Shown: one piece after another, positions 21,796 through 34,369 of the stretch
How positions within the stretch are numbered: position 1 is the first letter of the stretch
How the letters are laid out: the number at the start of each line of letters is the position of its first letter
Assembly: GCA_013177895.1 (NCBI GenBank)
Contig: JABLXV010000015.1
Span: forward strand, 1 to 52,774
Reading direction: 5' to 3'
Length of the DNA stretch: 52,774 nucleotides
From: Brevinematales bacterium
GTDB lineage: Bacteria > Spirochaetota > Brevinematia > Brevinematales > GWF1-51-8
Position numbers and translations under genes: made by a program
Notes under the pieces: generated by a model
Database searches by the model: none
What the model saw: the letters and a program-made list of their open reading frames with translations, nothing else
What the model was told of the DNA's origin: nothing

Positions 21796-23244
21796 ATGAA
21801 ATACCGCGTGGAAAAAGATTCTATCGGCGAGAAAAATATCCCTGAAAACGCCCTCTACGGCATCCATACCGTTCGCGCTCTGGAAAACTTCCCATCGGAC
21901 GGCGCGAGAGTGCCTGTAGAACTAATCCGGTCGATTGTTCTGATTAAACGATGCGCGGCCGTCGTAAGCCTCGAAAACAGCCTCATCGAGCCCTCCAAGG
22001 CCTCCGCCATCATCAATTCATGCGATCAACTGCTGACGCATCATCCGTCCGACGCGTTTCCACTGCCGTCCATACAGGGGGGCGCGGGCACTTCGGTCAA
22101 TATGAACGTCAACGAGGTAATCGCGAATACGGCAATTCTGCTTCTCGGCGGAAATCCCGGCGATTATCATCTCGTTCACCCTAACGACGACGTCAACCGT
22201 TTCCAGTCCACCAACGACGTCTATCCGTCCGCGCTCCGTATCGCGGTGATCGAACTTCTTGTCAATCTTGCCAACAGCCTTGCCGACCTGCAATCATCGC
22301 TTCAGGAAAAGGAGCGTGAGTTCGCGGATATCATCAAGGTCGGGCGTACCGAGATGCGGGACGCGGTTCCCGTGACGCTCGGGCAGGAATTCGGGGCTTA
22401 TGCCGAGGCGATCGCCCGCGACCGTTGGCGCGTGTTCAAGTGCGAGGAACGCCTTCGCGTGCTGAATATCGGGGGCACTGCGGTCGGAACAGGGCTGAAC
22501 GCTCCGAAAATCTTCATATTCCGCCTGATCGAGGAACTCCGTAGAGCTACGGGGCTGGGCATCAGCCGCGCGGAAAATAATATCGATATGACGCAGAACG
22601 CCGACGTTTTCGCCGAAGTCTCGGGCATCCTGAAAACGGTCGCTGTCAACTATATAAAAATTTCGCACGACCTTCGCCTGCTGTCGAGCGGGCCTTATGC
22701 GGGTATCGGGGAAATCGATCTCCCGAGGCGTCAGGCCGGGAGTTCGATTATGCCGGGGAAAGTCAACCCGGTCATACCGGAGTATGCCGCGTCTATCGGG
22801 ATACAGGTGATCGCGAACGATTCCGCTATCACACAGGCCGCGTCGATGGGACAGCTCGAACTTAACGCGTTCCTCCCGGTGATCGCGGAAAATCTCATCC
22901 GTTCGGTAAAACTCCTGACGGACGGCGCTGTATCGCTGAAAAATTACTGCATCGACGGGATTACCGCGAACGCGGAGCGATGCCGCGTCCTTTTAGAACA
23001 TAGCGAAGCCCCCGCCACCCTGCTCGCCCCCTATATCGGCTATGACCGGAGCGCGGAAATCGTTTCATACGCGCGGGAACGGAGTATCACAGTACGCGAA
23101 GCCGCGATAGAAATGAAGATATTTACCGCGCCCGAGCTCGATATTATTTTCGATACGCGGCACGCCACGTCCCCCGGAATATCCGGGAGTAAAGAGCTCA
23201 GGGATAGAATAAATCTGAAAAATGAGAGCGACAGCCATGAATGA
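21796..23244 (+). CDS. aspA: Aspartate ammonia-lyase
   Basis: A 482-residue member of the fumarase/aspartase superfamily that converts aspartate to fumarate and ammonia. It begins RVEKDSIGEKNIPENALYGI, the usual aspartase opening (R-x-E-x-D-x-[LI]-G-x-x-x-[VI]-P). VNDDVNRFQSTNDVYPSALR-like text (N-D-x-V-N-x-x-Q-S-T-N-D) is at about residues 133-145, and GSSIMPGKVNPVIPE is the superfamily signature loop with the catalytic serine. The gene overlaps hydF. Aspartate ammonia-lyase genes are often found inside hydrogenase-maturation (hyd) clusters, so context supports aspartase over fumarase. A good promoter and a CAGGTG ribosome site precede it. Confidence 0.93.
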   Translation: MKYRVEKDSIGEKNIPENALYGIHTVRALENFPSDGARVPVELIRSIVLIKRCAAVVSLENSLIEPSKASAIINSCDQLLTHHPSDAFPLPSIQGGAGTSVNMNVNEVIANTAILLLGGNPGDYHLVHPNDDVNRFQSTNDVYPSALRIAVIELLVNLANSLADLQSSLQEKEREFADIIKVGRTEMRDAVPVTLGQEFGAYAEAIARDRWRVFKCEERLRVLNIGGTAVGTGLNAPKIFIFRLIEELRRATGLGISRAENNIDMTQNADVFAEVSGILKTVAVNYIKISHDLRLLSSGPYAGIGEIDLPRRQAGSSIMPGKVNPVIPEYAASIGIQVIANDSAITQAASMGQLELNAFLPVIAENLIRSVKLLTDGAVSLKNYCIDGITANAERCRVLLEHSEAPATLLAPYIGYDRSAEIVSYARERSITVREAAIEMKIFTAPELDIIFDTRHATSPGISGSKELRDRINLKNESDSHE

Positions 23245-24472
23245 GACCCCAAAAAGCGAAAGGATGCATATCGGGATATTCGGCCCCAGGAACGCCGGGA
23301 AGTCGAGCCTGATTAACGCCCTGACCGGGCAGGAAATCGCGCTGGTGTCAGATACCCCCGGCACGACGACCGACCCTGTTTATAAATCGATGGAAATACT
23401 CCCGATAGGCCCGGTCGTGATAATCGACACCGCCGGTCTGGACGATTCCGGCGATCTGGGCGCGAAACGTGTTAAAAAGTCGATGGATGTACTGCGTAAA
23501 TGCGATTTAGCGGTGGTAGTAATTCCCGCTCGTACTATTTTAGACGAAAGCCCCGCGGCTGAGGATGATTTATTCAAGTCATTACAAGACAAAGAGATAC
23601 CGTTCATCGTGGCGGTAAATAAAATAGATATCGATTCCGTTGACGATACGCTTATTCGTAAACGGCTGAAAAATATCCCGTTCATCAAAATCAGCGCGCT
23701 GACAGGCGCGGGAATCGGACTTCTCAGGCAGGCGATAATTACCGAGAGCGACGTGAGATGGCGTGAGGATACGATAGTCGGGGATATTATTTCCCCCGGC
23801 GACCTCGTGGTGCTGGTCGTCCCGATAGACGACGCCGCCCCTAAAGGGCGTCTCATCCTCCCGCAGGTGCAGACGATCCGCGATATCCTCGACCATGACG
23901 CTATCGCGCTGACGGTGAAGGAACGCGAGCTCGCGCAGACATTCCGAATGCTCAGCGTCAAGCCGAAATTGGTCATCACCGACTCGCAGGCGTTCCAGAA
24001 GGTATCGGCGGACACCCCGCCGGACATCCTGCTGACATCGTTCTCTATCCTGTTCGCGCGGTACAAGGGCGACCTTCTGACCTACCTGCGCGGGATAAAA
24101 CGCATCAATTCGCTTAAAGACGGCGATAAAGTCCTGATAGCGGAAGCATGTACGCATCATGTGCAGTCCGACGATATCGGGACGGTAAAAATACCGCGAT
24201 GGCTGTCGCAGTTTACGGGAAAGAACCTGGTTTTCGAAAAATCCAGCGGCTGCGGCTTCCCGGACAACCTGTCGGAATACCGCCTCGTCGTGCATTGCGG
24301 ATCGTGCATGCTGAACCGCCGCGAAACTATCGCGCGCGCGCGCGCGGCCGAACAGGCGGGGGTCGCGATCACCAACTACGGGCTGACTATCGCCTACTCG
24401 TTCGGTATACTCGAACGCGCGCTTCGGCCGTTCCCTATCGCGGAAGCCATCCTGTCCGACGATATTTACTAA
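23237..24472 (+). CDS. hydF: [FeFe]-hydrogenase maturation GTPase HydF
   Basis: A 411-residue scaffold protein on which the di-iron subcluster of the [FeFe]-hydrogenase H-cluster is assembled before transfer to the hydrogenase. The N-terminal GTPase domain has GPRNAGKSS (residues 16-24), SDTPGTTTDP, DTAGLDD and VNKID. The C-terminal cluster domain has the diagnostic EACTHH with Cys305 and HCGSCM with Cys354 and Cys357, the three iron-sulfur ligands, plus the HydF phrase DDIGTVKIPRWL. I chose the ATG at 23237 because the product then begins TPKSERMHIGIFG like known HydF proteins; it overlaps aspA by 8 bases. The partner radical SAM genes hydE and hydG and the hydrogenase itself are not in this window. 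Confidence 0.97.
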   Translation: MNETPKSERMHIGIFGPRNAGKSSLINALTGQEIALVSDTPGTTTDPVYKSMEILPIGPVVIIDTAGLDDSGDLGAKRVKKSMDVLRKCDLAVVVIPARTILDESPAAEDDLFKSLQDKEIPFIVAVNKIDIDSVDDTLIRKRLKNIPFIKISALTGAGIGLLRQAIITESDVRWREDTIVGDIISPGDLVVLVVPIDDAAPKGRLILPQVQTIRDILDHDAIALTVKERELAQTFRMLSVKPKLVITDSQAFQKVSADTPPDILLTSFSILFARYKGDLLTYLRGIKRINSLKDGDKVLIAEACTHHVQSDDIGTVKIPRWLSQFTGKNLVFEKSSGCGFPDNLSEYRLVVHCGSCMLNRRETIARARAAEQAGVAITNYGLTIAYSFGILERALRPFPIAEAILSDDIY

Positions 24473-24481
24473 GGGGGAGTT

Positions 24482-25270
24482 ATGAAAACGGTTATCTATT
24501 ATTTCACCGGCACCGGGAATTCGCTTTGGGCGGCGCGTAAAATCGGGGGATATTTGGGCGATACCGAGCTTATCCCGATTATCCGCGCGATGAAGGAGAA
24601 AAAATTCGCGCCTGAAGCATCGCGGATCGGCTTTGTTTTCCCGCTATACTTCGGCGGAATCCCCCTGATTGTCGCCGATTTTATCCGCGAATTGGATTTT
24701 TCCGGCGCGGAATATATTTTCACGGTCTGCACCCGGGGATTCCATATTGCCGGGGGCGCGATCAAACAGATGAAAAATTTATTGCTATCGCAGGGTTCCA
24801 GCCTTTCATTGGGGCTTTACCTGAATATGATCGATAACTACCTCCCGACGTTCGATATACCCGCGAAGGAAGCATTGATAAAAACCAACGTTTCCGCGCA
24901 GGATAAAACGGAAAAAATCGCCCGGATGATCGCCGCGGGTAAGAAAAAAATCAGTTACGCGCTTCTCGAGATCAACGGGAATATCCTCTATCCGTCTTTC
25001 CTGAGGGGCGCGCGCGGGATGGACGCGGAGTTTATCCTGCGGGATACCTGTAACGGATGCGCGACCTGCGAAATGGTCTGCCCGGTGAACAATATCCGTA
25101 TGACGGACTCCCGCCCTGAATTCCTTCATCACTGCGAGCAGTGTTATGCCTGCGCGCACGCGTGCCCGAAACTGTCCATAGTACCGGGAACCAAGTCGCT
25201 CAATAAAAAGCGCCGTTTCAGAAACCCCGAGATCGCACTGAGAGATATTATCGCGCAGAAAAGCGGGTAA
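24482..25270 (+). CDS. EFR1-type flavodoxin-ferredoxin fusion
   Basis: A 262-residue redox protein. The N-terminal flavodoxin-like part begins VIYYFTGTGNSLWAARKI, the FMN phosphate-binding loop (T-G-T-G-N-S), with FVFPLYFGGIPL further on. The C-terminal part is a two-cluster ferredoxin: CNGCATCEMVCP (about residues 193-204) and CEQCYACAHACP, each giving four cysteines for a 4Fe-4S cluster. Such EFR1-family proteins carry low-potential electrons in anaerobes. It follows hydF by 9 bases with a GGGGGAG ribosome site. It could supply electrons to hydrogenase maturation or to the radical SAM enzyme downstream; both are inference from position. Confidence 0.9.
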   Translation: MKTVIYYFTGTGNSLWAARKIGGYLGDTELIPIIRAMKEKKFAPEASRIGFVFPLYFGGIPLIVADFIRELDFSGAEYIFTVCTRGFHIAGGAIKQMKNLLLSQGSSLSLGLYLNMIDNYLPTFDIPAKEALIKTNVSAQDKTEKIARMIAAGKKKISYALLEINGNILYPSFLRGARGMDAEFILRDTCNGCATCEMVCPVNNIRMTDSRPEFLHHCEQCYACAHACPKLSIVPGTKSLNKKRRFRNPEIALRDIIAQKSG

Positions 25271-25318: not shown

Positions 25319-25855
25319 ATGAGTTTTAAAATTTCTCCTGTTTCCAAAGAACCCGTCTATTCCATCGATAAACTACCCCGTAAAAAAGGAATCACTAAGG
25401 CCGCTGCGCTGATCGCGCTATCGGTGACAGCAATTATTACCGGGGGAGCCGAACCCCCTCCGCCGATGCCCGGTAAGGTGGCATATAATCCTCTAATCTA
25501 CGATAAAGCGGAACTTGTCGTATATCTCGACGAAATGTACAAATGGGATTGCAATATTGAGATGAAGTACGATATAAAAGTCGAAATCAAGACAAAGGAC
25601 GGTAATATCAGCTTTATCGCCGATGGGTATAAAGAAAAGTATAAAATCGCCTATGAGTGGGTCGCCCTGCCGGGGTATACCACGAACGGGAAACCTGATA
25701 GCATTTTATCATCGAACGAGATCGCGCTGATAAAAGACTATCAGTTCGATTCTACCTATATTTTTATCATCGATAAAAACCGGCTTACGGATATAAAAAG
25801 CGCTTTTTACGGTTTCTATACCGTTATCAGTAAAAAAGTAAAATTTCCTAAATAG
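25319..25855 (+). CDS. Tandem paralog family protein 1 (unknown exported protein)
   Basis: First of seven related proteins of a family I do not recognise (178 residues). The N-terminus MSFKISPVSKEPVY is the most degenerate form of the shared F-x-I-x-x-E-x-R-x-P-x-Y motif (Glu and Arg lost). A basic run (RKKGITK) and hydrophobic span (about 28-42) ending T-G-G-A-E look like a signal peptide with an unusually long leading segment, followed by a proline-rich linker. The C-terminal core has ADGYKEKYKIAYEW (residues 101-114) and FDSTYIFII. An AGGAGG ribosome site precedes the ATG, and the next paralog starts 9 bases after the stop. Role unknown; a possible substrate of the radical SAM enzyme at the array's end. 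Confidence 0.75.
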   Translation: MSFKISPVSKEPVYSIDKLPRKKGITKAAALIALSVTAIITGGAEPPPPMPGKVAYNPLIYDKAELVVYLDEMYKWDCNIEMKYDIKVEIKTKDGNISFIADGYKEKYKIAYEWVALPGYTTNGKPDSILSSNEIALIKDYQFDSTYIFIIDKNRLTDIKSAFYGFYTVISKKVKFPK

Positions 25856-25864
25856 AGGCATTGT

Positions 25865-26419
25865 ATGGAATTCAGGATAGAAGCCGAAACACGCCGACCT
25901 TGTTTAAGCGGTATTAAAAAAGTCCAGATAAAAAAATCTACTATACTTTTATGCCTTCTGGGTCTGATGTCCCTATTCCCTGTCTCCTGCGCGAATGAGT
26001 GTAAACCCCTCGCCGGTTCGCCCGCGCTTCCCCCGATGGATATTTCCAACAAACAGGAATTGACAGCTTTAATCGATGGGGATGCCGAATCAAAATATGG
26101 GATATCCTTCGTACATGATTATCCTCTAGAAATCACATATCAGGGAAAGACGATAAAATTCACGGCGGACGGATTCGATATGGCGAATAAAATCGCATAC
26201 GAATTCATCGGGTTAAAGGATTATTATTCAAATACTATCAAAGACGATGTGCTGACTATCGATGAAATAGAATCTTTACAAAATATGAAATTCGGCGAGT
26301 ATTATATTGCTGTCCTGAATATGCCCTCATCGGTTATGGCGCGTTCGAGTTTTCGTAACACCATCGATCAATTCATCAGCGACGGAAATATTCTATACAA
26401 CCTAAAAAAATCCAAATAA
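25865..26419 (+). CDS. Tandem paralog family protein 2 (probable lipoprotein)
   Basis: 184 residues. The leading motif is MEFRIEAETRRP, where the shared Tyr position is replaced (C-L-S). A basic patch (KKVQIKK) and a hydrophobic stretch end in the lipobox-like F-P-V-S-C with Cys42, so it is probably lipidated. The core is ADGFDMANKIAYEF (residues 101-114). The later F-D-S-T-Y-I segment is changed to FGEYYIAVL, making this the most divergent C-terminus of the seven. A ~100-base gap with its own promoter follows, which divides the array into 1-2 and 3-7. Confidence 0.73.
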   Translation: MEFRIEAETRRPCLSGIKKVQIKKSTILLCLLGLMSLFPVSCANECKPLAGSPALPPMDISNKQELTALIDGDAESKYGISFVHDYPLEITYQGKTIKFTADGFDMANKIAYEFIGLKDYYSNTIKDDVLTIDEIESLQNMKFGEYYIAVLNMPSSVMARSSFRNTIDQFISDGNILYNLKKSK

Positions 26420-26462
26420 TTTCCGCGGTAATCTAAAAATATAATATTATCACACCGTTACT

Positions 26463-26490
26463 TTTACAATTTATGACTGTATGTTATTAT
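26463..26490 (+). promoter_or_regulatory. Internal promoter before paralogs 3-7 and the radical SAM gene
   Basis: TTTACA (26463-26468), a 16-base spacer and TATTAT (26485-26490), 28 bases before the third paralog's ATG. Suggests that the distal part of the array, including the radical SAM gene, can be transcribed separately. Confidence 0.5.
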
Positions 26491-26518
26491 ATAAAGGAGA
26501 ATTTTTCAGGAGGAATCC

Positions 26519-27049
26519 ATGGATTTTCAGATACGCCCCGAAAAAAATACTACCCGGTATCAGGTCAAGCCTTCCGCGAGGAATAGCGGAAAATTGATTC
26601 TTCCCATAGCCGCCGCGATGATAGCGTTAGTCGGATGCGGTTCTCAGACCAAAGAGGACTATCCCCCTCTCGCGGGAAAGCCTGTGTACAATCCCCCGAT
26701 CTACGAAAAAGCTCAGATGAATGATATCGCTTCAAATATGTTCGGGGAATATCTGGATATTACATTCAACCCGGAACAAAGCATCAAACTGAAAGATAAA
26801 TCGGGTACAATCGAATTTACCGCCGACGGGTATAACGAAAAATATAAAATCGCCTACGAATGGGTCGGTCTCCCGACTTATAAACTCGACACCAATCAAA
26901 AATCCGCTCTTTCCGAAAGCGAAATATCGCTGATTAAGAATTATAAATTCGATTCGACCTATATTTATATTATCTATGAAAAAGCCTATTACGATATCTA
27001 TCGGGAGTTCTGGCCGTTCTACGAATGGTATACCAACGAGGTTAAGTAA
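26519..27049 (+). CDS. Tandem paralog family protein 3 (probable lipoprotein)
   Basis: 176 residues. The N-terminus MDFQIRPEKNTTRY keeps F-x-I, Glu and Tyr of the shared motif but not R-x-P. The hydrophobic span ends in ALVGC, a good lipobox with Cys40. A linker (PPLAGKPVYNPPIYEKAQM) is similar to those in paralogs 1, 4 and 5. The core is ADGYNEKYKIAYEWVGLP (from residue 102), then LSESEISLIKNYKFDSTYIY. A strong AGGAGG ribosome site lies 5 bases before the ATG. Closest to paralog 1 in the core region. Function unknown. Confidence 0.77.
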   Translation: MDFQIRPEKNTTRYQVKPSARNSGKLILPIAAAMIALVGCGSQTKEDYPPLAGKPVYNPPIYEKAQMNDIASNMFGEYLDITFNPEQSIKLKDKSGTIEFTADGYNEKYKIAYEWVGLPTYKLDTNQKSALSESEISLIKNYKFDSTYIYIIYEKAYYDIYREFWPFYEWYTNEVK

Positions 27050-27071
27050 AACGCTCAATAGGAGGAAAAAT

Positions 27072-27617
27072 ATGGAATTCCAGATTCGCATGGAAGATAG
27101 AAATCCCGAGTATAGTTATAATCCTGAAGAAATTGCAATTAAGCGAAAAAAGTACGTTTCACCGCTCCTGATCTGCCTTTTTGCAATCTTAGGAATGGCA
27201 TCCTCCGCGAGTCCGGCGGACGTAAAAACCGCGGGAGTTCCTGTCTATAATCCCGAGGTTTATTCGGTCACGTCGATGACCGTAATAGTAGATAAAATTA
27301 TTCAGGACAATATCGATATAAAAATGAAGCATTCCGTCCCGTTAAAACTTAAAACGGATGACGGTAAAACGATCGAGTTTATCGCTGACGGGTATAACGC
27401 GGAAAAAAAACTCGCCTACGAGTGGATTGCCGCGCCGGATTATTCCAAAGATAAAAAAGCAACTGAAATTCTCACAACTAATGATATCGCGTTCATCAAA
27501 AACGCCAAATTCGGCGATACTATAATCCTCGTAATCGATAAAAAAGATAAAATCGGAATGCAGCAATATGTCAGCACCTATATGTATCTATTGAAAAACA
27601 AGGATAAAGCAAAGTAA
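27072..27617 (+). CDS. Tandem paralog family protein 4
   Basis: 181 residues with the ATG at 27072, chosen because GGAGG (27061-27065) lies just upstream and the product then opens MEFQIRMEDRNPEYS, a near-perfect copy of the shared motif; a longer frame from 26976 would overlap the previous gene. Basic KRKK and a hydrophobic span (about 29-44) end in SSASPAD, a likely signal peptidase I site rather than a lipobox. The core is ADGYNAEKKLAYEW (residues 105-118), then ILTTNDIAFIKNAKFGDTI. Paralogs 4 and 5 are close relatives (shared KMKHxVPLKLK and AYEWI), suggesting a recent duplication. Confidence 0.77.
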   Translation: MEFQIRMEDRNPEYSYNPEEIAIKRKKYVSPLLICLFAILGMASSASPADVKTAGVPVYNPEVYSVTSMTVIVDKIIQDNIDIKMKHSVPLKLKTDDGKTIEFIADGYNAEKKLAYEWIAAPDYSKDKKATEILTTNDIAFIKNAKFGDTIILVIDKKDKIGMQQYVSTYMYLLKNKDKAK

Positions 27618-27634
27618 TCATATCGGAGGAAGTT

Positions 27635-28186
27635 GTGGATTTTAGAATAAAAAGCGAGCATAGAAACCCGGAGTACGATATTCATCCTGAACGCCCTCCG
27701 CAAACGAGAAAGAAAGCCGCCCTGCCCCTTCTGATGGGAATACTGATGGTATTTGGGACTACCCCCTCCGCGGCACCCTTAGAGGCAGAAAAAACTACTA
27801 TGGGGGAACCGGTTTATATTCCCACGATTTATACTATCGACGAGATGATCAATAGGGCGGATCAGGCAATACATTTTCATATGACCGTAAAAATGAAGCA
27901 TCATGTTCCGCTGAAGCTGAAATCGCCCGATGGAAAACAGATCATCGAGTTTATCGCGGACGGATATAACGCCGATAAAAAACTTGCCTACGAATGGATT
28001 ACCGCGCCGGGTTATGCAAAGGATAAAAATGATGCCGATATATTATCTACGAAGGAAATATCGTTTATCTCGAACTCGATGTTCGGAGATACCATGATAT
28101 TTATTATCAATACAAATGACGCGGATTTAGTCTGGGACTACGTTTCCGCAAGGATGATAACTCTCAAGAAAAGTATGAATAAGTAA
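27635..28186 (+). CDS. Tandem paralog family protein 5
   Basis: 183 residues from a GTG start placed 5 bases after GGAGGA. The N-terminus VDFRIKSEHRNPEYD carries the full shared motif. RKKAALP and a hydrophobic span end in TTPSAAPLEA, a signal-peptidase-like site. The core is ADGYNADKKLAYEW (residues 108-121), followed by ILSTKEISFISNSMFGDTM. Most similar to paralog 4. Spacing to its neighbours is 17 and 30 bases, consistent with one transcript. Confidence 0.76.
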   Translation: MDFRIKSEHRNPEYDIHPERPPQTRKKAALPLLMGILMVFGTTPSAAPLEAEKTTMGEPVYIPTIYTIDEMINRADQAIHFHMTVKMKHHVPLKLKSPDGKQIIEFIADGYNADKKLAYEWITAPGYAKDKNDADILSTKEISFISNSMFGDTMIFIINTNDADLVWDYVSARMITLKKSMNK

Positions 28187-28216
28187 CAATAACATGCGAT
28201 ACGAATGGAGGATACT

Positions 28217-28741
28217 ATGAAATTCGAGATTAAGAAAGAGACGCGGGGTATTGGGTATAGCGAAAATCAGGCGAAGACTCCGAAAAAGGCGATTGCCGCC
28301 GCGGCGATTATATTAGGTGTTTCCATTCTCGCCGGGTATAATTCCGTAAGCGCGGGCGGATACGCAAAGGACGGCGACGTCGCAATGCTTCCCGCACTGA
28401 AGAATAAGGGCGAAGTGATGCAGATTTTCAAGGACCTTTTCAAGAAAAAACTCCCCATGAACTTTAAGCAGGATTACCAGCTCAAGCTGAAAGATAAGAA
28501 TAGCGTGATCGAGTTCGAGGCGGATTTATACAATTCCGACGCTAAAATCGCGGTGGAATGGGTATCCGCGTCAAACTATACGAAAAATGAAAAAACCTCC
28601 ATGATACTGACCTCCGACGAGACCGCGCTGATAAAGGGGTATGTATTCGATTCGACCTATATTTTAGTAATACCGGGTATCTATGAGTATGAAGTGAAAG
28701 ATACGGTAAAAAAGTTTATCGATTTCTACATGAAGCAGTAA
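28217..28741 (+). CDS. Tandem paralog family protein 6
   Basis: 174 residues from the ATG at 28217, which follows TGGAGGA and gives the motif-bearing start MKFEIKKETRGIGY; an in-frame ATG at 28205 overlaps that ribosome site. The proline of R-x-P is replaced. The hydrophobic span (about 25-40) ends in SVSAGG. The core is ADLYNSDAKIAVEW (residues 102-115), with Gly replaced by Leu and the aromatic before Glu by Val. The C-terminus (VKKFIDFYMKQ) resembles that of paralog 7 (ISKFIDFYTNQ). Confidence 0.76.
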   Translation: MKFEIKKETRGIGYSENQAKTPKKAIAAAAIILGVSILAGYNSVSAGGYAKDGDVAMLPALKNKGEVMQIFKDLFKKKLPMNFKQDYQLKLKDKNSVIEFEADLYNSDAKIAVEWVSASNYTKNEKTSMILTSDETALIKGYVFDSTYILVIPGIYEYEVKDTVKKFIDFYMKQ

Positions 28742-28757
28742 CCCAAAAGGAGACACT

Positions 28758-29285
28758 ATGATATTCGAATTGGCGCGGGAGACGCGTATTCCAGAGTATT
28801 CATCGATAAAAAAATCGAAAAAAACGAAATCCCTGCTTCTTATCGGCGCGTTTATTCTCGCCGGCTTATCCCCGTTAAGCGCGGAAACACCTGATGACCT
28901 ACAACCCCTCCTCGGCGTACAAGTAGTCGCCCCGAAAATTCTATCTTCCGAACAGGTACAGCAGATTGTGAATGAAACTTTTAAAAACACCCTCGGTTTC
29001 GAGTTAAAAGATAAAAAAGCAATCAGCCTGAAATCCGGTAAAAATACGGTAATTTTCTTCGCGGAAAGCTATAACTCCCAGAAGAAAATCGCCTTCGAAT
29101 GGATGGGTAAGAGTGAGTATCACGACGGGAAAAATAACTACTCGAAGATTATTTCCCCGGCTGAAATGAAATGGATCGATCATTATCAGTTCGATCATAC
29201 TTATATTGTCGTATCGTATGGGATCAACATGGAGTCGATCCAGTACGATATCTCGAAGTTCATCGATTTCTACACGAACCAGTAA
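28758..29285 (+). CDS. Tandem paralog family protein 7
   Basis: 175 residues. The N-terminus MIFELARETRIPEYS holds the full shared motif. Lys-rich KKSKKTK and a hydrophobic span end in LSPLSAE, a good signal peptidase I site (about residue 42). The core is AESYNSQKKIAFEW (residues 102-115), where Asp becomes Glu and Gly becomes Ser, then FDHTYIVV. AAGGAGAC precedes the ATG. The radical SAM gene begins one base after this stop without its own clear ribosome site, so their translation is probably linked. This copy is therefore the best candidate partner or substrate. Confidence 0.78.
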   Translation: MIFELARETRIPEYSSIKKSKKTKSLLLIGAFILAGLSPLSAETPDDLQPLLGVQVVAPKILSSEQVQQIVNETFKNTLGFELKDKKAISLKSGKNTVIFFAESYNSQKKIAFEWMGKSEYHDGKNNYSKIISPAEMKWIDHYQFDHTYIVVSYGINMESIQYDISKFIDFYTNQ

Positions 29286-29286
29286 T

Positions 29287-30345
29287 ATGAATATAGTACT
29301 TCTTTTAACCGACAACTGCAATCTGCGATGCACCTACTGTTATTACCAGAACACTAAAAACCGTAAAAACGGCGACCCCGGGACAATTACGGGGGCTATC
29401 GATTATTTTTACGGCTACGCTAAAAAAATGAAGCACGATTTCCTGAATATCACTTTCTTCGGTGGCGAACCTCTGCTTTCATGGGATTTACTCAAGACCG
29501 GCGTCGCGCATGCGGAGAATATCCCCGACCCCGGTTTCCGCTTTCACTTCGCTGTCAACACTAACGGGACTTTACTATCCGACGAGAAAATCGATTATAT
29601 GGAAGAGCATAAATTCCTCATCTATCTCTCCCTCGACGGTGTAAAAAAGACCCAGGACAGCCAAAGGCCTCTGCATAACGGCGGCGGAAGTTACGATATG
29701 ATCTCCCCGTGGATACCCCGTCTCACTAAGTCCAACACGATGGTGGAGAAAGTAATCACTCCCGAAAATGTGGCGTCGTTTACCACGGACATAGAGTTCA
29801 TTATCAACAGGGGATTCCGTTCGATTATCACTACCCCGGATTTTTCGGGAAACTGGACGCGCGAGTCGTTCGAAACGCTGGAGCGGGAATATAAAAAGAT
29901 GTACCAGCTCTATCTGAAGAAGCAGAAACGCGGGAAAGCGCTGTATATCAATCTGATCGAGGATAAGATCAAAGCCTTCCTCGCGAAAAAGTCGTTCAAG
30001 GAAACCTGCTGTAATATGGGTTTGAGTATCTTCTCGGTATCCCCGGAGGGAAATATCTATCCCTGCACGCGTTTTGTGACCAGCGACCCCGGCAGTCCGT
30101 TTCTTGTCGGAAACATCAAGGACGGTATCGACCCTAAAAAATTAATCTCCATCAACAGCTTCCACAGTAAGGATAAGCCCGAATGCGTCGACTGCACGAT
30201 CAAAGACCGCTGCCTGGGCAATTCCTGTGGATGCGTGTCCTATTCTACTACCGGCGACATATTCGGCCTGAACCCGTTCGTCTGCGAGCACGAACGGATG
30301 ATTACCCGGATGGCCGACGAGCTTGCGACCGAACTGTTCGGCTGA
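29287..30345 (+). CDS. Radical SAM / SPASM protein, probable peptide- or protein-modifying enzyme
   Basis: A 352-residue enzyme. CNLRCTYCYY (Cys11, Cys15, Cys18) binds the 4Fe-4S cluster that cleaves S-adenosylmethionine to start radical chemistry, and FFGGEP (57-62) is the SAM-binding G-G-E motif. The C-terminal third is a SPASM-type domain for auxiliary clusters, with Cys241/242, Cys260 (NIYPCTRF), the run Cys300, 303, 309, 314, 316 and Cys333. SPASM enzymes modify peptides or proteins (for example anSME, PqqE and sactipeptide synthases). The ATG at 29287 is one base after the stop of paralog 7; an upstream in-frame ATG at 29206 would give an unrelated serine-rich leader. No sulfatase or short precursor peptide is nearby, so the tandem paralogs are the obvious candidate substrates (inference). 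Confidence 0.9.
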   Translation: MNIVLLLTDNCNLRCTYCYYQNTKNRKNGDPGTITGAIDYFYGYAKKMKHDFLNITFFGGEPLLSWDLLKTGVAHAENIPDPGFRFHFAVNTNGTLLSDEKIDYMEEHKFLIYLSLDGVKKTQDSQRPLHNGGGSYDMISPWIPRLTKSNTMVEKVITPENVASFTTDIEFIINRGFRSIITTPDFSGNWTRESFETLEREYKKMYQLYLKKQKRGKALYINLIEDKIKAFLAKKSFKETCCNMGLSIFSVSPEGNIYPCTRFVTSDPGSPFLVGNIKDGIDPKKLISINSFHSKDKPECVDCTIKDRCLGNSCGCVSYSTTGDIFGLNPFVCEHERMITRMADELATELFG

Positions 30346-31989: not shown

Positions 31990-32616
31990 TTAGATATATT
32001 TCTTGTATTCCGGGTTGTCGGGGAAGTACCTGACCGCGACCACTTTATTGCCGCGCCCGTTGTAGATAAACCCGCCGTTCCAGTATTCCAACGCGGCGAA
32101 CAACGCGTTACCGCCGTCCATCTCGTTCGATTCGGGACCCTTCCATGCGACCAGGTCGGCGAAATGCTCGAAATCCTGCGATACGAGACAAATTGTCCGG
32201 TTCAGGGAGAACTTGTTCCAGTCCTGAAGCAGGCCGAAACCGACACCCTCGTCCTCGACAATGACTTTCGCGCGCTTATTGAAATCGAACCAGACGCGAA
32301 TCTTTTTATTCGGGTCGAGCTTGTTACCGTGTTCAATTCCGTTCTTGATCAGCTCGCTGATCTGCTGTTCGAGGAGGTTGACTTCCTTATACAAATCGGG
32401 AGCGTACTGGACGATATACGAGGTATAAGCGCGAACTTTTGAAAAATCACTTGGGAACTCTTTGTAATACATACCGTGGGTATTAAAGAGAACATGAGTG
32501 TCGTCTTTCAGAAGCTGCTTAATTTCAATCTCGCGGTTGTCCTGCAAGCGCACAATCAATGTGTTCTCGTTTTTCCATCCCACCACGTCATACTTATAAT
32601 AATCTTCGACCAACAT
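31990..32616 (-). CDS. Stand-alone GHKL ATPase domain protein (anti-sigma/kinase-like)
   Basis: A 208-residue cytoplasmic protein. The C-terminal ~130 residues form a HATPase_c fold: LISELIKNGIEHGNKLDP-like text gives the N-box (E-x-x-x-N-x-x-x-H), and VIVEDEGVGFGLL the G1 box (D-E-G-x-G-F). No phospho-acceptor His domain or membrane segment is present, so it resembles serine-kinase/anti-sigma ATP-binding proteins (RsbW/SpoIIAB class) more than a sensor kinase. The N-terminal ~75 residues are unassigned. The ATG at 32616 is 8 bases after GGAGG. A longer frame to 32721 is ruled out because the promoter at 32693-32721 lies over it. No sigma factor is adjacent. Confidence 0.78.
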   Translation of the reverse strand: MLVEDYYKYDVVGWKNENTLIVRLQDNREIEIKQLLKDDTHVLFNTHGMYYKEFPSDFSKVRAYTSYIVQYAPDLYKEVNLLEQQISELIKNGIEHGNKLDPNKKIRVWFDFNKRAKVIVEDEGVGFGLLQDWNKFSLNRTICLVSQDFEHFADLVAWKGPESNEMDGGNALFAALEYWNGGFIYNGRGNKVVAVRYFPDNPEYKKYI

Positions 32617-33518: not shown

Positions 33519-33547
33519 ATCATACCCGGAACAGGGAATATACGCAA
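33519..33547 (-). promoter_or_regulatory. Promoter for the methyltransferase gene
   Basis: On the minus strand TTGCGT (33542-33547), 17-base spacer and TATGAT (33519-33524), 25 bases before the ATG at 33494. Confidence 0.6.
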
Positions 33548-33591
33548 ATAAACGGAAAATAGATGAAATGAAAATTTTTATTTAAAGAAAT

Positions 33592-33620
33592 TTGACGAAA
33601 GCCGATAAATGCATTATAAT
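33592..33620 (+). promoter_or_regulatory. Promoter of the tRNA operon
   Basis: TTGACG (33592-33597), a 17-base spacer and a perfect TATAAT (33615-33620), about 55 bases before the first tRNA. Divergent from the methyltransferase promoter. Confidence 0.8.
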
Positions 33621-33675
33621 TTTTGTCACAATGAGGCGGGAACACAGGATTATAAAACGGCTCCTCGTTGTACCG

Positions 33676-33750
33676 CGGGGCGTAGCGCAGCTCGGTTAGC
33701 GCACCTGCCTTGGGAGCAGGGGGCCGGAAGTTCGAATCTTCTCGCCCCGA
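33676..33750 (+). tRNA. tRNA-Pro (anticodon TGG)
   Basis: Acceptor stem CGGGGCG/CGCCCCG, anticodon stem CCTGC/GCAGG with loop CTTGGGA, and T-arm GGAAG-TTCGAAT-CTTCT. The 3' CCA is not encoded. Confidence 0.96.
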
Positions 33751-33758
33751 AGGTGATC

Positions 33759-33832
33759 GCGCTTGTAGCTCAGCTGGATAGAGCAACGGCCTTCTAAGCC
33801 GTGGGCCACAGGTTCGATTCCTGTCAGGCGCA
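33759..33832 (+). tRNA. tRNA-Arg (anticodon TCT)
   Basis: Acceptor GCGCTTG/CAGGCGC with one T-G pair, anticodon stem ACGGC/GCCGT with loop CTTCTAA, and T-arm ACAGG-TTCGATT-CCTGT. 8 bases after tRNA-Pro. Confidence 0.96.
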
Positions 33833-33838
33833 TAACGT

Positions 33839-33914
33839 GGAGGAAGTAGCTCAATTAGGTTAGAGCATCGGTCTGTGGCACCGAGGGCTGTGGGTTCAAG
33901 TCCCATTTTCCTCC
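33839..33914 (+). tRNA. tRNA-His (anticodon GTG)
   Basis: Anticodon stem TCGGT/ACCGA with loop CTGTGGC, and T-arm GTGGG-TTCAAGT-CCCAT. Acceptor GAGGAAG pairs with TTTCCTC. The extra 5' G at 33839, opposite C at 33914, is the His identity G-1. Confidence 0.95.
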
Positions 33915-33968
33915 CATTAAATATAAGGATCGGGGAACAATCCTGATCTTATGATAGATTTGCTGAAA

Positions 33969-34042
33969 GCGTCCGTAGCTCAGGTGGATAGAGCAGTGGA
34001 CTTCGAATCCGAAGGCCGCAGGTTCGAATCCTGCCGGGCGCA
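33969..34042 (+). tRNA. tRNA-Arg (anticodon TCG)
   Basis: Acceptor GCGTCCG/CGGGCGC, anticodon stem GTGGA/TCCGA (first pair G-A) with loop CTTCGAA, and T-arm GCAGG-TTCGAAT-CCTGC. The unmodified TCG anticodon (rather than ACG) suggests a U34 reader for CGN codons. Confidence 0.94.
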
Positions 34043-34076
34043 AGCCGGAATTGATTGGTATTATTGACTATAGACC

Positions 34077-34149
<73 letters not shown>

Positions 34150-34159
34150 ACTTTCTTTA

Positions 34160-34241
34160 GCGAGAGTGGCGGAATTGGCAGACGCGCTAGACTTAGGATC
34201 TAGTACCGAAAGGCGTGCGGGTTCAAGTCCCGCTTCTCGCA
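34160..34241 (+). tRNA. tRNA-Leu (anticodon TAG)
   Basis: Class II tRNA: acceptor GCGAGAG/TTCTCGC, anticodon stem CTAGA/TCTAG with loop CTTAGGA, a long variable arm (TACCGAAAGGCGT) and T-arm GCGGG-TTCAAGT-CCCGC. Confidence 0.96.
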
Positions 34242-34291
34242 GTTCACTCAGGCTAAGGTTATTTGGATTTTATTCCGAATATATTTATCAT

Positions 34292-34364
34292 GCGGGAATA
34301 GCTCAGTTGGTAGAGCGCCACCTTGCCAAGGTGGATGTCGCGGGTTCGAGTCCCGTTTCCCGCT
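34292..34364 (+). tRNA. tRNA-Gly (anticodon GCC)
   Basis: Acceptor GCGGGAA/TTCCCGC, anticodon stem CCACC/GGTGG with loop TTGCCAA, and T-arm GCGGG-TTCGAGT-CCCGT. Last tRNA of the operon. Confidence 0.96.
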
Positions 34365-34369
34365 CATAG

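Follow-up and report, generated by a model that had tools for sequence, protein, structure and literature searches.

The stretch of DNA considered here, referred to as the window, covers positions 1 to 52,774 (forward strand, 52,774 nucleotides) of contig JABLXV010000015.1 from a Brevinematales bacterium (assembly GCA_013177895.1). It carries an array of seven genes for related exported proteins, called partners below, which ends in a gene for a radical SAM/SPASM enzyme. Judged from their sequences, the paralogs and the enzyme are a conserved pair that is found in several phyla and was recovered from both directions, i.e., with the enzyme and with the partners as bait. We consider it probable that the enzyme is a dedicated SPASM maturase that recognizes a leader situated ahead of the partners' signal sequences and modifies these proteins while they are still in the cytoplasm, prior to Sec export. 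The observations at the base of this reading are the genes themselves, their pairing across many lineages, the tight coupling of the genes, the intact cluster ligands of the enzyme, and the co-occurrence of leader and enzyme.

The array (25319–29285) consists of seven consecutive plus-strand open reading frames (ORFs) of 174–184 residues, and the ATG of the enzyme gene at 29287 lies one base past the stop codon of the seventh. By sequence comparison the seven ORFs are true paralogs. They show 24–42% identity to one member, keep 12 invariant columns over a full-length alignment, and come up with E values from 1e-11 to 1e-32 when the genome is searched with a single sequence. All have a common layout in which 23–27 residues lead into a hydrophobic export segment that is followed by one domain. 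An earlier note on this DNA, made from the sequence alone, had described seven tandem related exported proteins of one layout followed by a SPASM enzyme, and the ORFs, the alignment and the invariant cysteines of the enzyme bear this out. The same note called them exported proteins or lipoproteins. Export segments are indeed present in all seven, but only two are lipoprotein-like, the third (LVGC) and the second (PVSC), while those of the other five look like ordinary signal or anchor segments.

The enzyme and its recurrence beside the partners

The enzyme (29287–30345, plus strand, 352 residues) begins directly at its radical SAM core, where the cysteines of the CxxxCxxC motif (C11, C15 and C18) are 100% conserved across the enzyme family and PF04055 scores 54 bits (cut-off 29.5). 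The SPASM model PF13186 scores 17.6, under its cut-off of 21.5. Residue by residue the SPASM region is intact, given that the auxiliary-cluster cysteines C242, C260, C300, C303, C309, C314 and C333 are 100% conserved in the family and align with those of CteB. C316 is an extra cysteine, invariant in the family and missing from CteB. No RRE (PqqD-like) domain was found in the enzyme by Pfam; many enzymes acting on ribosomally synthesized and post-translationally modified peptides (RiPPs) have no RRE domain.

The best curated models for the enzyme are PapB (NF047865, 225 bits, cut-off 340) and the SCIFF maturase (TIGR03974, 162 bits, cut-off 425), and among solved structures CteB (5wgg) comes closest, with E 5e-43. 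These likenesses favor an alternative in which a PapB/SCIFF-type thioether maturase acts on an unseen small cysteine peptide and the paralogs are mere neighbors. However, all of the scores fall under their cut-offs, the partners are cysteine-poor (0–4 residues, none conserved), and in many lineages the partner gene touches the enzyme gene so that there is no room between them for a separate precursor. We regard this alternative as improbable. Thioether formation is also unlikely in the partners because they have no conserved cysteine; a C–C, C–O or C–N cross-link, oxidation or epimerization would be more probable.

A second alternative is anaerobic sulfatase-type maturation, with formylglycine formed either in the paralogs or in sulfatases from other loci. 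The compact build of the enzyme without an RRE domain is that of the sulfatase-maturing enzyme anSME, but the anSME model TIGR03942 reaches 96 bits against a cut-off of 349, and CteB is matched far better than the anSME structure (E 1e-17). The QhpD model TIGR03906 gives 152 bits against a cut-off of 453. The earlier note had seen no sulfatase nearby, and a PF00884 search extends this to the whole host genome, where no match was found. With no conserved cysteine in the paralogs either, formylglycine formation is largely refuted and its probability is very small. Score, structure match and tree all place the enzyme outside the anSME family.

In a quick tree of 52 sequences, the window enzyme groups with the enzymes of Fibrobacter and of genome G077, a member of another family (SH-aLRT 99). 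Enzymes from Zixibacteria, Cloacimonadota, Chitinivibrionia, Saprospiria and Planctomycetota form a second clade (support 98). The union of both clades is weakly supported (47), and the long branches of the outgroup make deep placement unsure.

A paralog-first search of 100 relatives found family members in four genomes, with the enzyme directly behind the last paralog in all four. Across the 393 genomes of the window's phylum the paralogs are again found in 4, the only addition being a weak match in G008 that was rejected as a partner, since it is a DUF559 protein. One of the four is G077, whose enzyme is only 37% identical to that of the window. With the enzyme as bait, one GTDB-wide scan gave 80 loci with 83 enzyme ORFs and found the enzyme in Fibrobacter, Zixibacteria, Cloacimonadota, Saprospiria and Planctomycetota. 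Four partner profiles recognize an adjacent leader-bearing partner at 62 of the 83 enzyme ORFs, a descriptive count, as the profiles were built from partners at these same loci; one further partner (L080) was recognized by eye. The distance between the two genes is mostly −3 to +10 nt, and they are mostly translation-coupled. At some Fibrobacter loci two or three partners stand in tandem before the enzyme, like the window array.

Searches that start from the partner are an independent test of the pairing. Profile A4, run on the phyla of G397 and G400, found three genomes that had not been seen through the enzyme (G489, G491 and G598), and the enzyme is adjacent in all of them. Profile A6, run on the order of G404, found another such genome, G864, again with the enzyme adjacent. 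In 15 genomes that were scanned whole, every A4 partner match lies at an enzyme locus. The earlier note had proposed checking homologs for a neighboring radical SAM gene, and the leader-bearing homologs do have the enzyme adjacent.

The scans also brought up several separate observations. Lys/Ala-rich ORFs of ~90–180 residues lie 15–41 nt downstream of enzymes of the same clade at Fibrobacter loci L091, L097, L115, L117, L121–L122 and L124–L134, and may be a second partner class for this clade. Elsewhere in Fibrobacter, radical SAM proteins of ~690 residues (L128:7080–9146, L128:3838–5913 and L130:7211–9295, minus strand) adjoin small ORFs that start MANxNxKLxKxxLAGAKL, possibly another related modification system. 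Within the window's phylum, two SPASM radical SAM genes stand in tandem next to a Gly/Cys-rich peptide of 70–82 residues at L064 (6246–8731) and at L065 (7859–10418). Both have an EreA/ChaN-like protein and L064 also an ABC exporter and a membrane-fusion protein, so that each looks like a separate two-enzyme RiPP cluster. These tandem pairs were rejected as family members because they lie outside the clade and go with small Gly/Cys-rich peptides.

The leader ahead of the signal sequence

The exported partners (150–550 residues) have 18–52 residues ahead of the hydrophobic export segment, which is often followed by a lipobox. This leader starts with the pattern M-x-[F/I/L/V]-x-[I/V] and has basic residues; in most cases an aromatic residue and S or P come next. 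The pattern is MxFxIxxExRxPxY in the window family, MLxIxxVxxYxxAKYP in Zixibacteria and Cloacimonadota, LKVxPVxRYxxAKYPSFxDPNPL in Saprospiria, YDPGYP in Planctomycetota, and MxIxKxKV...WS in Fibrobacter. The Saprospiria partners have 16 invariant columns within the first 60 residues, i.e., in the pre-signal region. Two G077 partners have 100% identity up to the hydrophobic segment and 53% in the body. Such hyper-conservation of the leader is found in some paralog pairs (L044 and L175). As a general argument it was dropped, since the window family does not show it.

The leader, not the body, appears to track the enzyme in the small sample at hand, because body homologs without a leader are also without the enzyme and because Fibrobacter partners with other bodies keep both leader and enzyme. 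The A6 search returned four body homologs (L210–L213) whose longest ORFs begin at the signal sequence, 4–7 residues before the hydrophobic core. No member of the enzyme family was found around them at E 1e-3 within the flanking stretches of 7.5–8 kb that were searched. Leader-bearing partners from the same search do have the enzyme adjacent. The resulting table of leader against enzyme reads 16:0 versus 0:4 (P 2e-4, to be taken as a guide only, since the genomes are related and some are known through the enzyme).

These data bear on the possibility that the pair is a conserved neighborhood with no enzyme–substrate relation, e.g., a shared stress or redox regulon. Within the genus, hydF and an EFR1 ferredoxin gene also adjoin the array, as this would predict. 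Across phyla, however, only partner and enzyme stay together and hydF does not, and the leaderless homologs are without the enzyme. A bare neighborhood is thus a distinctly improbable explanation.

From the observations above we infer partner modification, docking on the leader, and an order in which modification comes before export. The enzyme would dock on the 18–52-residue leader in the cytoplasm and modify the partner either ahead of Sec export or while it is under way, after which leader and signal would be cut off together by signal peptidase I or II. The leader would act like that of a RiPP, with a whole exported or lipid-anchored protein as the product. One window enzyme would serve the seven neighboring partners and probably two more that are encoded on another contig. 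The earlier note had put the paralogs forward as natural substrates; the conserved pair in several phyla speaks for this, but the extension and not the body tracks the enzyme, and the modification itself is inferred.

The strongest competing reading puts the modification in the leader itself, for example around K-Y-P or R-x-P-x-Y, either as a small peptide released by signal peptidase or for export control. The co-occurrence of leader and enzyme while the bodies differ would be expected here, as would the invariant pre-signal columns in Saprospiria and the pre-segment identity of the G077 partners. The aromatic residue of the Fibrobacter leader is, however, not kept in all partners, so there is no single universal residue; in lipoproteins signal cleavage would remove a modified leader; and a docking role accounts for the same data. 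Modification of the leader is accordingly less likely than modification of the protein behind it, though it deserves more weight than the other alternatives.

Several findings weigh against leader-guided modification of the partners. The leaderless set is small (four), may go back to one evolutionary event, and was searched in its flanks only. The leader of the window family is no better conserved than the body, the likeness between Fibrobacter and window-family leaders is weak (hhalign P 8.7e-4), and outside the leader there is no residue that all partner classes share. Satellite paralogs on other contigs have no adjoining enzyme. At 18 Fibrobacter enzyme ORFs a small, mostly Lys/Ala-rich downstream ORF without an export signal is found instead of a partner, and at L135 and L141 the profiles recognized no partner.

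A broader claim is that the leader is a portable tag that makes unrelated exported proteins substrates of one compact, RRE-less SPASM enzyme, in approximately six phyla and for a nine-member family in the window's genome; we put the chances of this at about even. If true, it would show how radical chemistry reaches exported proteins with quite different bodies, and the leader could provide a portable tag for protein modification. With its Fibrobacter members the system extends to a genus that has cultured species, and the question of recognition can be tested directly on natural homologs that have or lack the leader.

The partner bodies, the array and its neighbors

The bodies of the non-Fibrobacter partners form one domain, as indicated by profile comparison among the window, Zixibacteria and Saprospiria types (P 2.5e-12 and 1e-12), with the Planctomycetota type at P 8e-4. 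The Fibrobacter bodies are unrelated, Ser-rich and of low complexity, and have only the leader layout and the lipobox in common with the other partners. AlphaFold2 models of the window and Zixibacteria types agree in the order of their elements (alpha-beta-beta-beta-alpha-beta-alpha), and the second and third strands carry a conserved D103 and an invariant E114. This suggests that the body is possibly a degenerate PD-(D/E)XK nuclease-like fold. The likeness to DUF559 and PD-(D/E)XK proteins lies in the element order alpha-beta-beta-beta-alpha-beta, in a D and an E eleven residues apart, and, for the window family, in a weak profile match. The DUF559 profile aligns the D and E in register with a score of 28.1, against at most 15.6 in up to 40 column shuffles, which serves as a guide only. 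The Zixibacteria-type profile has no match to DUF559. Foldseek with the partner models gave no significant match (none under E 0.001); its matches in a viral library are largely PD-(D/E)XK nucleases (best E 0.0055). Unlike those nucleases, the partner body is exported and does not keep the K position, the third active-site residue. A role for the body as an active nuclease was set aside as only suggestive, with the third catalytic residue absent and no significant structure match.

The seven paralogs all lie on the plus strand. Paralog 1 (25319–25855, 178 residues), delimited from its ORF and the alignment, has leader MSFKISPVSKEPVYS, export segment and domain, and a clear ortholog was not found in the sister genomes. 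Paralog 2 (25865–26419, 184 residues) has leader MEFRIEAETRRP and its lipobox PVSC is a possible one. Paralog 3 (26519–27049, 176 residues), with leader MDFQIRPEKNTTRYQ and lipobox LVGC, is the subject of AlphaFold2 model m4d09edc1c824. Paralog 4 (27072–27617, 181 residues) has leader MEFQIRMEDRNPEYS and an internal ATG with a Shine-Dalgarno-like AGGAGG, and paralog 5 (27635–28186, 183 residues) has a GTG start and leader MDFRIKSEHRNPEYD. Paralog 6 (28217–28741, 174 residues), with leader MKFEIKKETRGIGYS, has an alternative ATG at 28205, 12 bases upstream. Paralog 7 (28758–29285, 175 residues) has leader MIFELARETRIPEYS and an ortholog of 70% identity in GWF1_51_8. Against their best matches in a sister genome, paralogs 2–6 show purifying selection (dN 0.18–0.45, dS 1.5–2.0). 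The two further paralogs, on contig C16, have no radical SAM gene next to them. The host genome (G000) is 3.6 Mb and 95% complete, with Brevinematales DeMMO6_14 and Spirochaetes GWF1_51_8 as its nearest named relatives.

Directly upstream of the array (21796–25270) lie an aspartate ammonia-lyase-like gene, hydF, which encodes the GTPase for [FeFe]-hydrogenase maturation, and a gene for an EFR1-family ferredoxin. EFR1 is absent from this position in GWF1_51_8 (L042). A role in hydrogenase maturation through hydF was rejected because the order hydF–array–radical SAM gene is found within the genus only and not in G077, Fibrobacter or other phyla. Downstream, on the minus strand (31990–32616), is a gene for an ATPase-like (HATPase-type) protein of 208 residues, which two other species of the genus have at 100% and 99% identity. 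Its DNA is 90% and 87% identical, and the neighboring radical SAM protein 87% and 68%. From these identities the HATPase-type protein is under what appears to be very strong protein-level constraint. Seven clustered tRNA genes (Pro, Arg, His, Arg, Lys, Leu, Gly) lie at 33520–34365, and a minus-strand ORF at 33520–33906 that overlaps three of them is probably spurious.

Comparison with known systems

Among SPASM enzymes whose products are known, the majority act on short peptides. NCBIfam has models for a radical SAM/lipoprotein system (TIGR04133/TIGR04134); TIGR04133 is not among the 25 best models listed for the enzyme. The family profile of the paralogs matches no PDB chain in a sequence search. 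Six window paralogs were run against Pfam and NCBIfam with no match to a curated model in either, and the partners of L082, L145, L136, L148, L143 and L091 likewise have no NCBIfam match. No Pfam or NCBIfam family covers any of the partners tested. In the open literature nothing specific to such a system was found, with subscription papers mostly not covered. The enzyme clade, the partner families and the pre-signal leader are apparently undescribed, matching no curated family searched and no open paper found.

The earlier note had suggested that whole exported proteins or lipoproteins as substrates of a dedicated radical SAM enzyme would be a new arrangement, and this is not supported as far as protein substrates go. 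Among SPASM enzymes, anSME acts on sulfatases and QhpD on quinohemoprotein amine dehydrogenase (PMC5682303), while MNIO enzymes act on precursors with Sec signals, such as the bufferins, some of them protein-sized (PMC12452194).

The PapB/SCIFF maturases (ScfB and CteB) are the closest SPASM relatives by profile and structure and have the same SPASM ligand positions. The window enzyme differs from them in having no N-terminal RRE extension, in scoring below the cut-offs, in the additional C316, and in its partners, which are exported proteins without a conserved cysteine. Like anSME, it is a compact SPASM enzyme that would modify whole proteins (PMC5682303), but it scores far under the anSME model cut-off and the genome search returned no sulfatase. 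QhpD, too, is a SPASM enzyme dedicated to a protein substrate (PMC5682303); the window enzyme is under the QhpD cut-off as well, and the thioether chemistry of QhpD needs cysteine, which is not conserved in the partners here. The MNIO systems share with the proposed one the cytoplasmic, oxidative modification of precursors with Sec or lipoprotein signals, and their signal region may be part of recognition (PMC12452194). They belong to a different enzyme superfamily, are cysteine-based and need partner proteins, whereas the putative recognition element in the system described here is an extension that stands before the signal.

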